Virus record (IMG/VR): IMGVR_UViG_3300032296_001361
Span: 1 to 33,912 of that record
Length of the DNA: 33,912 bases
From: a virus
Strand: one strand, 5' to 3'
Part shown: in pieces, positions 3,854 through 25,345 of the stretch
Layout of the letters: every line of letters starts with the position of its first letter
Position numbering within the stretch: position 1 is the first letter of the stretch
Notes under the pieces: generated by a model
The model's database searches: none
What the model saw: the letters and a program-made list of their open reading frames with translations, nothing else
Told to the model about the DNA's origin: nothing
Position numbers and translations under genes: made by a program

Positions 3854-4458
3854 TACGCCATGAACCTTGCCAGGCGATACGGCTCAACAAGCTGCTGAAC
3901 ATCAGGGTCAAGTCTTGTGCCAACCCGAATGTAACCGAGGTCTGGTGCAGACAACACACCCAACGGTGAGTCAAGGCGTTTGAAGATTCGGCTGGCCTGA
4001 ATAATGGTCGCCTGTTTTACAGCCACCGGTGCAGCAGACCAACCCCAAGTGCCAGTCACACGCACACTGGCCTCACCAATGTTTGTGCCAAACACATAAT
4101 CGCCAACAGCCCTGATCCGTGTTGCAGGCCAACCAGTCAAACCATCAGCCCTACCGTTCAAAGGTTCAAGCTGGTAATCGGTGGCAGTCCAAGTCTGGTC
4201 AAACACGCCATCAAGGTCGGCGGACACCACAAGGCTGCTCAACGAAATCAAGTCGTCAATCTCGCAAACAATCGTGTCTTCTGGTGTGAAGAATCGGGTT
4301 GCTGTGCCATTCGGGTAAAAGTTGCGACCAGCGAAACCATCAACCAGGCGTGAAGCCGACTCAATAGCCGTTTCCAGCAAACTGTCATCAATGCTGTCTG
4401 TTATTCGCAACGCCGCTTTGACATCAGCCAAAGTCGCATAACCGTTAGTAATCGCCAC
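3853..4458 (-). CDS. Head-tail connector (gp6/gp15-like adaptor)
   Basis: A 201-residue protein with the N-terminal helical region of gp6-like adaptors: YATLADVKAALRITDSIDD, then LLETAIESASRLVDGFAGRN. A beta-rich half follows, with TRIRAVGDYVFG and the conserved-looking GTWGW. The helix VKQATIIQASRIFKRLDSPL and the C-terminal LVEPYRLARF are typical of the family. It would form the ring between portal and tail. The start is GTG at 4458 with AGGAG five nt upstream. A glycan cassette separates it from the capsid gene, which normally sits next to it. Confidence 0.8.
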   Translation of the reverse strand: MAITNGYATLADVKAALRITDSIDDSLLETAIESASRLVDGFAGRNFYPNGTATRFFTPEDTIVCEIDDLISLSSLVVSADLDGVFDQTWTATDYQLEPLNGRADGLTGWPATRIRAVGDYVFGTNIGEASVRVTGTWGWSAAPVAVKQATIIQASRIFKRLDSPLGVLSAPDLGYIRVGTRLDPDVQQLVEPYRLARFMA

Positions 4459-16775: not shown

Positions 16776-17095
16776 CCAGCAGCCTTCCGCAACGCACGAC
16801 CAATACCCGAATCCAACCGGCAACCAGGGTCAAGAACCAAATGGTCAACAGCCACACAATCCCGATACCCACAAAGCCTAAGACCAGGCCGATACAAACG
16901 CCCAAACTTATCCAACGGATTATCGTCATCATCAAACAAACCCTGATGAGGTTGGCACAAACCATAAGCAGTCTTCACACGCGCCATCTGACCAGCCTTG
17001 CACTGCGCACAACCCCACAGGTCTTTGCCGCGCTTCTTCCGCGCCAACACCAGCACCTCAGACATCTCACAACCGCAACGCTCACACTGATACAT
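16772..17095 (-). CDS. HNH-derived zinc protein, paralog of the protein at 21774-22043
   Basis: A 107-residue protein. A first zinc motif, CERCGCEMSE, pairs with CAQC. A second block, CQPHQGLFDDDDNP and then PGLRLCGYRDCVAVDHLVLD, resembles the C-terminal half of HNH_3 domains (CxNxxCVNPDHL) without the usual catalytic DH core. The same block occurs in the 89-residue protein at 21774-22043. Start ATG at 17095 in a TGATG overlap with the NlpC/P60 gene. It may bind DNA without cutting; function unknown. Confidence 0.7.
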   Translation of the reverse strand: MYQCERCGCEMSEVLVLARKKRGKDLWGCAQCKAGQMARVKTAYGLCQPHQGLFDDDDNPLDKFGRLYRPGLRLCGYRDCVAVDHLVLDPGCRLDSGIGRALRKAAG

Positions 17096-17616
17096 CAACC
17101 AACCCTCACAAATCTCATCTTTGTATTCTTTACGCTGGCCGACTGCAAGTCAAGAACAGAAGTGGTCTGACCCTTCTTAAACCCTGCATGAATAACCTTG
17201 CCGTTGCCAATGTAGATGCTGGCATGGAAGAAGGTGTTCGTGCCTTTGTAACCAAACAGCACCAAGTCACCGATAGCCGGTGCAGACACCTTCACACCGG
17301 CACGAGCCTGCTTATTAGCTGAGTGGGGAAGGTCTATTCCGATCTGCTGATAAGCCCACCTAGTCATCCCTGAGCAATCCCAACCCGAAGGCGTAGAACC
17401 ACTGAACACATACCAGGTTTTGCCCACGCGCTTCTTCAAAGCCTTCACAACCTTAGCCATGCGGAACTCGGCAGCATCCTGCTTCACAAGGGTCATGAAA
17501 TCAGGGTTTGTTTTTACGATGGCCTGTGGCGCAGGTATTTGCGCAGCTGTTGCCGATGATGAGCAACCGGCAAGAATGACACCCAAAGTTGTGAGTGCGA
17601 TTAGTTGTTTCTTCAT
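17095..17616 (-). CDS. NlpC/P60 peptidoglycan hydrolase with a lipoprotein signal
   Basis: A 173-residue protein. The N-terminus MKKQLIALTTLGVILAGCSS is a lipoprotein signal with lipobox LAGC (C18). The NlpC/P60 domain follows: catalytic Cys in GWDCSGMTRWAY (C81), LPHSANKQ, IGDLVLFG, and His in FFHASIYIGNG (H131) with VIHAG (H143) nearby. Such enzymes cut D-Glu to diamino acid links in stem peptides. A phage hydrolase with a lipid anchor is odd for an endolysin. It could act on the outer face of the host membrane, for example in late lysis or in blocking superinfection. ATG at 17616, with AGGAAAGG upstream. Confidence 0.85.
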   Translation of the reverse strand: MKKQLIALTTLGVILAGCSSSATAAQIPAPQAIVKTNPDFMTLVKQDAAEFRMAKVVKALKKRVGKTWYVFSGSTPSGWDCSGMTRWAYQQIGIDLPHSANKQARAGVKVSAPAIGDLVLFGYKGTNTFFHASIYIGNGKVIHAGFKKGQTTSVLDLQSASVKNTKMRFVRVG

Positions 17617-17685: not shown

Positions 17686-17764
17686 TGGAGCGCCAGGAAG
17701 TCGAATCCTGCTCCTGCAATTACCCCAACAAGGTCTTGATTGCAGTCGAAACCACTTGCGCCCC
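17686..17764 (-). ncRNA. tmRNA-like small RNA: tRNA-like domain without the tag-coding domain
   Basis: A 79-nt sequence that folds as the tRNA-like half of tmRNA. The acceptor stem is GGGGCGC (17764-17758) with GCGCTCC (17693-17687), 7 pairs including G3-U70, then discriminator A (17686). The D-loop holds GGTTTCGAC, the most conserved motif at the 5' end of tmRNA, with no D-stem. A 7-bp stem CTGCAAT/ATTGCAG stands where tmRNA helix 2 begins, closed by 18 nt instead of the pseudoknots and tag frame. The T-arm is CAGGA-TTCGACT-TCCTG, a canonical T-loop. CCA is not encoded (CTAA follows). It begins 5 nt after the phosphoesterase stop. G3-U70 and A73 are the alanine identity signals. An attachment-site remnant is the main alternative. 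Confidence 0.65.
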
Positions 17765-17769
17765 AAGTC

Positions 17770-18939
17770 TTACAGTTTAAGCACCGCGCCTTGATAGTGC
17801 AAACCTTTGGTCAGTTCCAAACAGGTGATGCCAGGCACACTGTCTTCGCCCGACACACGCTTGAACCATGACGATCCGTTGTCGCTGGTCGTGGCCTGCA
17901 CCCAGAACCGTGAACCGCCATTGTGACTAGCACCAGCCTCAACAACTCTAAGGTGGTGAAAATGTGCTGTGAGCAGGATAGATGCCGCGCTGATCGTCTG
18001 ATTGCCAAAGGTGTTCTGCCGCCACCAAGTCACAGCGTTCTCAGGTCTGCTGAACTGGTGACCGTGAGCAATGCCGACAAGGTGGAAACCGTCACCGAAC
18101 GCATCAAAAATTAGTGATTCTTCCTGCTCATGTGGCACAAGGAAGTCAACAGGCAACCCGACCTCTACGGCTAGTCGGCGCAGCTGTTGCAGGATAACAA
18201 TGCCCCAGTCATCGCGCCCAGGTTTGCCAATCTGTTGACGGTTCACACGCCACTGACAATGGTTCGACCCGATGCTGGCATAAGTCACCGGCGCATACTT
18301 CGTTGCCATCTTCAAAAAATCCCAAACCAGCGAAGCAGCCAAATCAACCTGCTGCATCACAGACAGGTCGTTGGTCTGCAACTGTGTCATGCTGGCAGCG
18401 TTCTCAATGCCCTCAATGATGTCACCCAAATCCAACGCATAGATTCGCCCATACTTGCCGGCCTTCAACTGTGCTTCAATACGGTCATACGAAGCCAACA
18501 CGCGCTGAATCAGCTCTTTACTGCCCCCACGGTAATCAACCTTGCCAACCTGAAAATCTGCCAAACAAACAACAAACACCTTTTCATTCGCTGTGGCCTT
18601 CGGTGTGCGCGGCCTAGTCTTCTTAGCCTCAGCAAACAACAACGGCAAATCAGGGTTAGTGCCGGTGCGTTTCCTGAACCTGAAACGATAAGCCGTCAAC
18701 CACTGCGGATCTAACGGAAACGGTCTAGCCACCTGCCAACGGCTAGTGCGTGGTTCGCCCACAATCTCAATAAGCGCAGGGTCAAAACCAGCCTCAACCA
18801 AAAACTCATCAAAGTTCGGCTGCTCATCAGGTAAGAAGCCCCTGGTGGTTGCTTCGCCATTAGTGCCATCGAACTCAACAGCAGGCCGCCAACTGTTCGG
18901 CGCATCAAGTTTTGGTGCTGGTTGCAAGTCTTCTAGCAT
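17770..18939 (-). CDS. Metallophosphoesterase (calcineurin-like)
   Basis: A 389-residue protein with the five-block metallophosphatase signature after residue 125: LADFQVGKVD, LDLGDIIEG, IGSNHCQWR (GNH-type), GIAHGHQF and TAHFHHLRV. These bind two metal ions in Mre11/SbcD-like nucleases and related phosphoesterases. The N-terminal 120 residues hold basic and aromatic segments (WLTAYRFRFRKRTG) and may bind nucleic acid. It follows a small helix-turn-helix gene and closes the replication block just before the small RNA. A role in DNA processing or nucleotide metabolism is likely; the substrate cannot be read from sequence. Start ATG at 18939. Confidence 0.8.
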   Translation of the reverse strand: MLEDLQPAPKLDAPNSWRPAVEFDGTNGEATTRGFLPDEQPNFDEFLVEAGFDPALIEIVGEPRTSRWQVARPFPLDPQWLTAYRFRFRKRTGTNPDLPLLFAEAKKTRPRTPKATANEKVFVVCLADFQVGKVDYRGGSKELIQRVLASYDRIEAQLKAGKYGRIYALDLGDIIEGIENAASMTQLQTNDLSVMQQVDLAASLVWDFLKMATKYAPVTYASIGSNHCQWRVNRQQIGKPGRDDWGIVILQQLRRLAVEVGLPVDFLVPHEQEESLIFDAFGDGFHLVGIAHGHQFSRPENAVTWWRQNTFGNQTISAASILLTAHFHHLRVVEAGASHNGGSRFWVQATTSDNGSSWFKRVSGEDSVPGITCLELTKGLHYQGAVLKL

Positions 18940-23938: not shown

Positions 23939-24010
23939 TTTTACTGCCTTTTCTACGGCAAACCTAGTATTCTAGGAACTGCCGATAGGTCGATTATCGG
24001 TGAAGGTCAT
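23939..24010 (-). promoter_or_regulatory. Leader of the initiator gene with stacked inverted repeats and a mini-ORF
   Basis: These 72 nt contain GAAGGCCACCAGC paired with GCTGATGACCTTC (13 bp with two G-U, around the preceding stop), CCGATA/TATCGG (23982-24000, 7-nt spacer), CCTAG/CTAGG (23963-23976) and TGCC/GGCA (23945-23960). TAGAAT, a good -10 candidate, lies inside the CCTAG palindrome. A 12-codon frame (MTFTDNRPIGSS, 24010-23972) starts in a TGATG junction. The density suggests operator or attenuation control of the initiator. Confidence 0.45.
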
Positions 24011-24993
24011 CAGCTCTCGCTGGTGGCCTTCTCTAATTCTACATCTTGCAAAAGATAGCGTAACGCTAACACGGCCTGCTGCGGCACAACACCATTACCA
24101 CACATCTTCAACTCATCATTACGCTTCAACCCATGACCAGTCACCCAACCAGCAGGCAAACCCATCATCCACTCCGTAAACAAGCTGCTCAAACGGTGGT
24201 TGCCATCCTTCCCATCAGGTTTCGTTGGTGCTGGTGCTGGCCTTGTGACGGCTTCCCAACGGCGAATCGCAGGCTCAAACTTACCCCAATTAGTTTGCTT
24301 GTCTTGCAAGTCAATGGCAACATTTGGCAAATCGACCTGCCGACCCGAATCCAACCGTTCCTGCGATGACTTCAAATTGCCCTTGACCCCATCCAAAGCC
24401 TTCGGTGTTGGCAAAACATTTACTTCTGCACGACTAACCTGCAAACCCTGACCAGCAACCAAATCCATGACCTGATCACGAATCCCAACAGAATTGCCAC
24501 GCTCTAACGCAACCTTTTCACCCAAAGCACCACCGACACCATCAGATGCTCGTGGTGTCCTTAGCAACTTGTCTTCATCAGCTAAGTCTTTGCGCTCAGA
24601 CCGTTCACAACCACAAATAAACTCATGCAACAAATCGCCACCATGATCACGACACTTGCCAGAGTTATCCTGAGTGCTTGGTGTTGGCAAAAGCCTGTCA
24701 TCGCCATCGACAATGGCCTTGACCAAAGTGCCTATCTGTGGCTGTGAACGGCGCAAACCAGCTTCATAACCCTCAGCCTGCGAATCCCTAGCCTTGACGG
24801 TTGGCAAGGATGAAAACTCGCTCTCGCCTATGAGGTGCGCCGGCATCTGAAGCTCGAACAGTGTCCCATCGACAGTCATACCCGATTTCGGCCAAACTTC
24901 CTGCCACAGCACCCATCGCTCTGAGAACAGGCTGTGATCCATCAAACCCCACACCTGCAACTTCGCATTCCAACTCGCTATGTGCTTTACCAC
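24010..24993 (-). CDS. Cytosine-5 DNA methyltransferase, C-terminal/target-recognition subunit
   Basis: A 327-residue protein that carries what the upstream methyltransferase lacks. The first 75 residues (IASWNAK, FSERWVLWQEVWPKSGMTVD, EFSSLPTVKARDSQ) match the W-P-x-S-G-M-T...L-P-T segment that follows motif VIII in many phage C5 enzymes. The middle holds repeats of LPTP-type blocks (RLLPTPSTQD, LLRTPRASDG, VLPTPKALDG) expected of a recognition domain. The end has LPAGWVTGHG (motif IX-like) and GNGVVPQQAVLALRYL (motif X). GTG at 24993 has AGGGG 8 nt upstream. Its first 206 nt are shared, in another frame, with the end of the catalytic gene. Confidence 0.75.
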   Translation of the reverse strand: MVKHIASWNAKLQVWGLMDHSLFSERWVLWQEVWPKSGMTVDGTLFELQMPAHLIGESEFSSLPTVKARDSQAEGYEAGLRRSQPQIGTLVKAIVDGDDRLLPTPSTQDNSGKCRDHGGDLLHEFICGCERSERKDLADEDKLLRTPRASDGVGGALGEKVALERGNSVGIRDQVMDLVAGQGLQVSRAEVNVLPTPKALDGVKGNLKSSQERLDSGRQVDLPNVAIDLQDKQTNWGKFEPAIRRWEAVTRPAPAPTKPDGKDGNHRLSSLFTEWMMGLPAGWVTGHGLKRNDELKMCGNGVVPQQAVLALRYLLQDVELEKATSES

Positions 24994-25345
24994 TCAACAA
25001 ACCCCTAACATTCTCAATCACAACAAACTTCGGTTGAAGTTCAACAATGGCACGATGAAACTCAAACCACAAATTAGACCGTGTGCCATCAGTCAACCCT
25101 TTACGCTTACCAGCAACCGACAAATCCTGACACGGAAACCCACCAGTCAAAATGTCAACACGCTCAACCTGTGTAAAATCCACTTTGGTCACATCACGAT
25201 AATTCGGCACACCAGGCCAATGAGCATCTAACACCTTAGAAGGCGCATCTTCCCACTCACAATGCCAAACCACCTGTGCGCCAAACACTTCCTGCACAGC
25301 CAAATCCAAGCCGCCGTAGCCGCTAAAAAGACTTCCGATTTTCAT
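24788..25345 (-). CDS. Cytosine-5 DNA methyltransferase, catalytic subunit (motifs I-VIII)
   Basis: A 185-residue protein with motif I LFSGYGGLDLAV, motif IV GGFPCQDLSVAG (nucleophile C72), motif VI VIENVRG (111-113) and motif VIII APHRRERVFILAN (170-182), then a stop. Motifs IX and X and the recognition domain are missing here but occur in the overlapping gene 24010-24993. Split C5 methyltransferases working as two subunits are known (M.EcoHK31I, M.AquI). Product expected: 5-methylcytosine in phage DNA, protection against restriction. ATG at 25345 overlaps the HNH gene by 23 nt. Confidence 0.85.
   Translation of the reverse strand: MKIGSLFSGYGGLDLAVQEVFGAQVVWHCEWEDAPSKVLDAHWPGVPNYRDVTKVDFTQVERVDILTGGFPCQDLSVAGKRKGLTDGTRSNLWFEFHRAIVELQPKFVVIENVRGLLSGKAHSELECEVAGVGFDGSQPVLRAMGAVAGSLAEIGYDCRWDTVRASDAGAPHRRERVFILANRQG

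Follow-up and report, generated by a model that had tools for sequence, protein, structure and literature searches.

In tmRNA, the G3-U70 pair together with A73 directs alanylation, and the elbow of the tRNA-like domain (TLD) and the D-loop are bound by SmpB (PMC3968760). A TLD-only tmRNA is known from Mycobacterium phage DS6A (Mao et al. 2009; listed in PMC11915505 and PMC4131195). PMC4131195, citing Mao et al. 2009, reports strong inhibition of tmRNA in E. coli by a TLD-only RNA, whether or not it can be charged, and names titration of SmpB as a possible cause. The DS6A form inhibited the endogenous tmRNA in E. coli (PMC11915505). In addition, a CDS-less tmRNA of about 65 bp occurs in Mallomonadaceae plastids (PMC11915505). 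A 2025 tmRNA database paper rejected truncated forms during curation, and its text names no phage case besides DS6A. In the accessible tmRNA literature, DS6A was likewise the only phage TLD-only tmRNA, and more cases may exist. A sequence-only reading of the DNA analyzed here knew of no described phage RNA of this kind, but that of DS6A had been published earlier. The kind is thus already known from one phage and two plastid sequences, and the 79-nt RNA described below is an added member, whereas novelty seems to lie in the size of the family and in its universal alanine identity.

The window, i.e., the whole 33,912-base stretch of DNA analyzed, is positions 1 to 33,912 of virus record IMGVR_UViG_3300032296_001361. 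A 123-base terminal direct repeat indicates that the record is a complete genome, and a WhiB gene (PF02467) points to an actinobacterial host. No tRNA genes were found in this 33.9-kb genome by ARAGORN. A DNA methyltransferase at 24010-25345 appears as two overlapping reading frames, perhaps through a frameshift.

The 79-nt RNA runs from 17764 to 17686 on the minus strand, which is also the strand of the adjoining phage genes (Table 1). As the sequence-only reading had stated, it begins 5 nt (GACTT) after a TAA stop codon and lies upstream of a hydrolase gene, here identified as an NlpC/P60 peptidase. The same reading had described an acceptor GGGGCGC/GCGCTCC with G3-U70 and A73, a GGUUUCGAC D-loop without a D-stem, a 7-bp CTGCAAT/ATTGCAG helix (H2), and a TTCGACT T-loop on a 5-bp stem, in the right order. 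All of these parts were borne out by the minus-strand sequence, where the T stem is CAGGA/TCCTG and the order is acceptor 5', D, H2, H2', T, acceptor 3'. AAGT precedes GGTTTCGAC, and A73 is followed by CT, CCA being unencoded. The claim that 18 nt replace the message part was also exact, since precisely this number is enclosed by the H2 strands; within it, a hairpin (ACCTT/GGGGT) was found that covaries too.

Table 1. Coordinates of the TLD-only tmRNA, its parts, and the neighboring genes in the window
Feature	Position	Strand	Evidence
TLD-only tmRNA, whole RNA	17686..17764	-	R1 match 59.5 bits, E 6e-14; RF00023 45.7 bits, model 1-374
Acceptor stem, 5' strand GGGGCGC; G3 = 17762	17758..17764	-	Partner 17687-17693; 7/7 pairs kept in 7 relatives, 4 with both-side changes
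Acceptor stem, 3' strand GCGCTCC; U70 = 17689	17687..17693	-	G3-U70 in 7/7 relatives and 79/80 family members
Discriminator A73	17686..17686	-	A73 in all re-registered family members; fixed by no family-wide scan
D-loop motif GGTTTCGAC, no D-stem; equals SmpB-binding region of tmRNA	17745..17753	-	Kept in syntenic relatives with typical RNA; lost in L010
H2 helix, 5' strand CTGCAAT, first base common to D-loop motif	17739..17745	-	Both-side changes in 7/7 pairs
Inner hairpin ACCTT-GTT-GGGGT in place of message domain	17722..17734	-	First pair A-U, U-A, G-C; relatives 100% paired
H2 helix, 3' strand ATTGCAG	17714..17720	-	Same covariation set as 5' strand
T arm CAGGA-TTCGACT-TCCTG	17694..17710	-	5/5 pairs kept, 2 with both-side changes
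Upstream gene, metallophosphoesterase / phage exonuclease (phrog_284), same operon	17770..18939	-	PHROGs E 6.5e-51
Downstream gene, NlpC/P60 peptidase	17095..17616	-	PF00877 E 9.5e-21

The architecture was searched for as a GGWTTCGA motif combined with a T stem of 5 bp and an acceptor of 7 bp, both perfectly paired; it occurred once in the 33,912-base window and in none of 1000 dinucleotide shuffles. The fold energy of the RNA was modestly unusual by itself (z -2.2). ARAGORN and default Rfam scans missed the RNA. The full RF00023 search later matched it over the whole model span with a score of 45.7 bits, below the cut-off of 47, and an E value of 8e-19; the default Rfam negatives were therefore filter losses. 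This cut-off was passed by 37 of the 47 records searched. Family members cover the model from its first to its last position in about 80 nt, with roughly 300 model positions absent. An independent covariance model, R1, was built from 13 unrelated phage RNAs. A MAFFT alignment (A2) misplaced the 5' acceptor, owing to the varying D-loop spacer, and a subset with equal spacing was taken for the model. The 79-nt RNA was the sole match of R1 in the window (E 6e-14). Together with the covariation described below, the Rfam and R1 matches strongly support the identity predicted by the sequence-only reading, namely a tmRNA TLD without its message and with alanine identity.

The RNA shares with tmRNA/ssrA (RF00023) the acceptor with G3-U70, A73, the stemless D-loop, H2, and the T arm, but it is missing the tag frame, the resume codon, the stop, and pseudoknots PK1-PK4. 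Compared by description, DS6A has a similar phage-encoded tmRNA with little beyond the TLD and no tag frame; the 79-nt RNA differs in the covarying hairpin on H2 and in its place in an operon of a 33.9-kb phage. The Mallomonadaceae RNA, also compared by description, is likewise without a message domain, but it belongs to a plastid and not to a phage. A two-piece (permuted) tmRNA is excluded by the part order, in which the 3' part of the TLD does not precede the 5' part. A tRNA-Ala was also rejected, since the D-stem and the 7-nt anticodon loop are absent and ARAGORN calls no tRNA.

Syntenic relatives, gathered via the flanking genes, carry the RNA at the same site between the metallophosphoesterase and NlpC/P60 genes. 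Three types are found there, with acceptors GGGGCGC/GCGCTCC, GGGGTGC/GCACTCC, and GGGTCAT/ATGATCC. In a plain MAFFT alignment of the seven distinct syntenic sequences, 98.2% of pairs were kept, 15 of 24 pairs showed changes on both sides, and G3-U70 was invariant. When partners were slid by 1-3 columns, the paired fraction fell to 39-51%. The last base of the D-loop motif is C or T and changes together with its H2 partner. The compensatory changes that the sequence-only reading had proposed to look for were thus present, and relatives did not keep the sequence at the expense of the pairing. At the orthologous site of a single genome (L010:4177-4237), a 61-nt RNA consists of an acceptor that retains G3-U70 and A73, a hairpin of 9 bp, and an arm resembling the T arm; the tmRNA D-loop motif is missing. 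No such RNA was present between the same two genes in L018, where a CCCCTAA/TTAGGGG hairpin follows position 4167.

Beyond these relatives, environmental viral contigs were scanned by pattern and the matches filtered for pairing in the acceptor and the T stem, which yielded at least 126 distinct TLD-only tmRNAs of phages (a lower bound), nearly all unannotated, compared with the one sequence of DS6A. The scans fixed the D-loop and T-arm cores, so that conservation of the D-loop is not countable from them; one scan also fixed U70, and two left the acceptor free. Among the matches listed from the acceptor-free scans, G3-U70 with A73 occurred in 108 of 112; three of the four exceptions fitted once their register had been adjusted by eye, and the remaining one was a non-member. 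The matches of R1 (83, representing 80 distinct family members) were 97.2% paired, with both-side changes in 19 of 22 pairs and a covariation score of 0.709 versus 0.127 when shuffled, although these counts lean towards the model to which the alignment was fitted. G3-U70 was present in 79 of the 80, although each of the four Watson-Crick types occurs at pairs 4 to 7 of the acceptor. As G3-U70 and A73 are essentially universal in the acceptor-free scans, alanine charging is probably under selection.

Isolates carrying the RNA include Streptomyces phages LuckySocke, GiJojo, Alone3, pSt2308, and BRock and Stenotrophomonas virus Jojan60, with diverged forms in Streptomyces phages Wofford and CeilingFan, Microbacterium phage Armstrong, and Vibrio phage D239. 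It is annotated as a TLD-only tmRNA in none of these named isolates. In GiJojo, the RNA is covered by gene 44 (hypothetical protein; L223:2999-3241), the annotation of which is probably spurious. Pseudomonas phage PA_L9, S-CRM01, and PSonyx, which gave BLAST matches to the 3' end, failed as family members on inspection. Two of 297 actinobacterial genomes carry the RNA; one copy adjoins phage-type exonuclease and nucleotide-kinase genes, and no recognized phage family was found near the other.

The neighbors of the RNA vary, and its strand is kept. Among the matches listed, about a dozen RNAs separate the head protease gene from that of the major capsid protein, about ten have a phrog_284 exonuclease/phosphoesterase gene directly before or near them, the arrangement seen in the window, and 25 of 126 have a tRNA within 1.5 kb, with 157 of the 158 such tRNAs on the same strand as the RNA. 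The RNA therefore occupies different operons yet stays sense to its main neighbors. In Streptomyces phages, it is located within tRNA arrays near RNA-ligase genes. Wofford and CeilingFan (L224 and L300 = NC_048722; L301 = PV165877) have a full annotated tmRNA as well as an unannotated, diverged TLD-only RNA in the tRNA array. No SmpB gene was found in any of the 47 carrier phage records searched, and an SmpB partner would thus be that of the host. In L013, L014, L015, L016, and L247, the RNA starts on the final base of the stop codon of the upstream gene; in L013-L016, this codon is TAG. There, 5' processing would leave the mRNA of the upstream gene non-stop, a possible feedback akin to that of the smpB/ssrA overlap described for Carsonella.

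Since the RNA holds no message, it would neither tag proteins nor supply a stop codon, and the published inhibition of tmRNA by TLD-only RNAs makes interference with host trans-translation its most likely role. The best explanation, which we consider reasonably probable, is a charged decoy that draws SmpB, EF-Tu, and stalled ribosomes from host trans-translation; a decoy was one of the two roles suggested by the sequence-only reading, and it agrees with the published inhibition. We infer its expression, processing, charging, SmpB binding, and effect on the host along the following lines. Transcription of the phage operon would yield the RNA, the ends of which would be trimmed in tRNA fashion; a host enzyme would add CCA, and host AlaRS would charge it with alanine. 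The charged RNA would then bind host SmpB and EF-Tu and compete with host tmRNA for stalled ribosomes, and host trans-translation would be blunted during infection. As an outcome, unfinished phage proteins might be spared degradation, or rescue might be moved to other pathways. Against a decoy, the L010 RNA has lost the tmRNA D-loop motif while its acceptor with G3-U70 and A73 remains, and in Wofford and CeilingFan a decoy should hamper the full tmRNA of the phage itself. In addition, the published inhibition was independent of charging (PMC4131195), but alanine identity is near-invariant, a pattern that simple SmpB titration fails to explain. The near-invariant charging determinants and the two phages with both forms suggest an action on the ribosome, where the charged RNA would be a dead-end competitor or, instead, take part in message-free rescue.

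The latter is possible, if doubtful: alanyl-TLD with SmpB would take the nascent chain on the stalled ribosome and free the ribosome without a degradation mark, by drop-off or by repeated template-free alanine addition, so that the phage would keep ribosomes running and its proteins intact. This would explain the near-invariant G3-U70 and A73 as well as the D-loop, and a TLD fragment with SmpB does make poly-alanine template-free in vitro (PMC3929946). The tRNA-array sites near RNA-ligase genes in the Streptomyces phages suit a pro-translation role, and a full tmRNA alongside is easier to accept. However, the sole in vivo result on such RNAs is inhibition of tmRNA (PMC11915505 and PMC4131195), and with no stop codon, release would require another factor. 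Because simple inhibition does not need charging, one may nevertheless tentatively see in the alanine identity the trace of a phage-run rescue by charged TLD-only RNAs and host SmpB, possibly with an alanine tail and without a degradation tag, although we think this unlikely.

Other readings take the RNA out of ribosome rescue. Its position between operon genes (5 nt past a stop codon in the window, at the head protease/major capsid junction at about a dozen other loci among the matches listed, and overlapping the upstream stop codon in some relatives) could mean that its tRNA-like fold prompts an RNase P/Z cut of the operon transcript between genes. This is improbable, as the least variable parts of the RNA, namely G3-U70, A73, and the tmRNA D-loop, are not required for such cleavage, and an extra cut would be superfluous inside tRNA arrays. 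The L010 form, with alanine identity and no D-loop, and the downstream peptidase, from a family acting on the cell wall, would fit a role outside translation, as a donor of alanine or a ligand of AlaRS, e.g., in cell-wall or lipid modification; but most other phages have another neighbor there and the SmpB-type D-loop is otherwise retained, and we give this little chance. An attachment-site remnant or decaying host ssrA copy, the explanation that the sequence-only reading had set against its own, can draw on ssrA-like 3' ends beside integrases in some phages, such as Gordonia phage Yeezy, where a tmRNA-like 3' end (L292:2487-2532) adjoins a tyrosine integrase and is probably an attP site in ssrA. 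At the present locus, however, the whole TLD is there, both acceptor halves covary, three unlike versions share one site with conserved flanks, and no integrase was found among the 20 proteins of the virus genome scanned in PHROGs; this explanation was rejected as very improbable.

The RNAs thus form a widespread phage family that ARAGORN misses and that mostly goes without annotation, and in which alanine identity is strongly selected. If the decoy reading is true, many phages attack host ribosome rescue by means of an RNA. Since isolates with culturable hosts (Streptomyces and Stenotrophomonas) carry the RNA, this reading is testable.

A shorter class of 63-64 nt (L103, L111, L114, L137, and L151) was also observed, in which H2 ends in a GCAA or related tetraloop and CCA is encoded. 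A TLD fragment made in the laboratory, with UUCG as its closing loop (PDB 2CZJ, Bessho 2007; PMC3929946), likewise has H2 capped by a short loop, and the natural RNAs of L103, L111, and L114 resemble it, although that fragment was designed. One phage contig bearing a TLD-only RNA also contains an abiF RNA (RF03085; L155:1078-1114).
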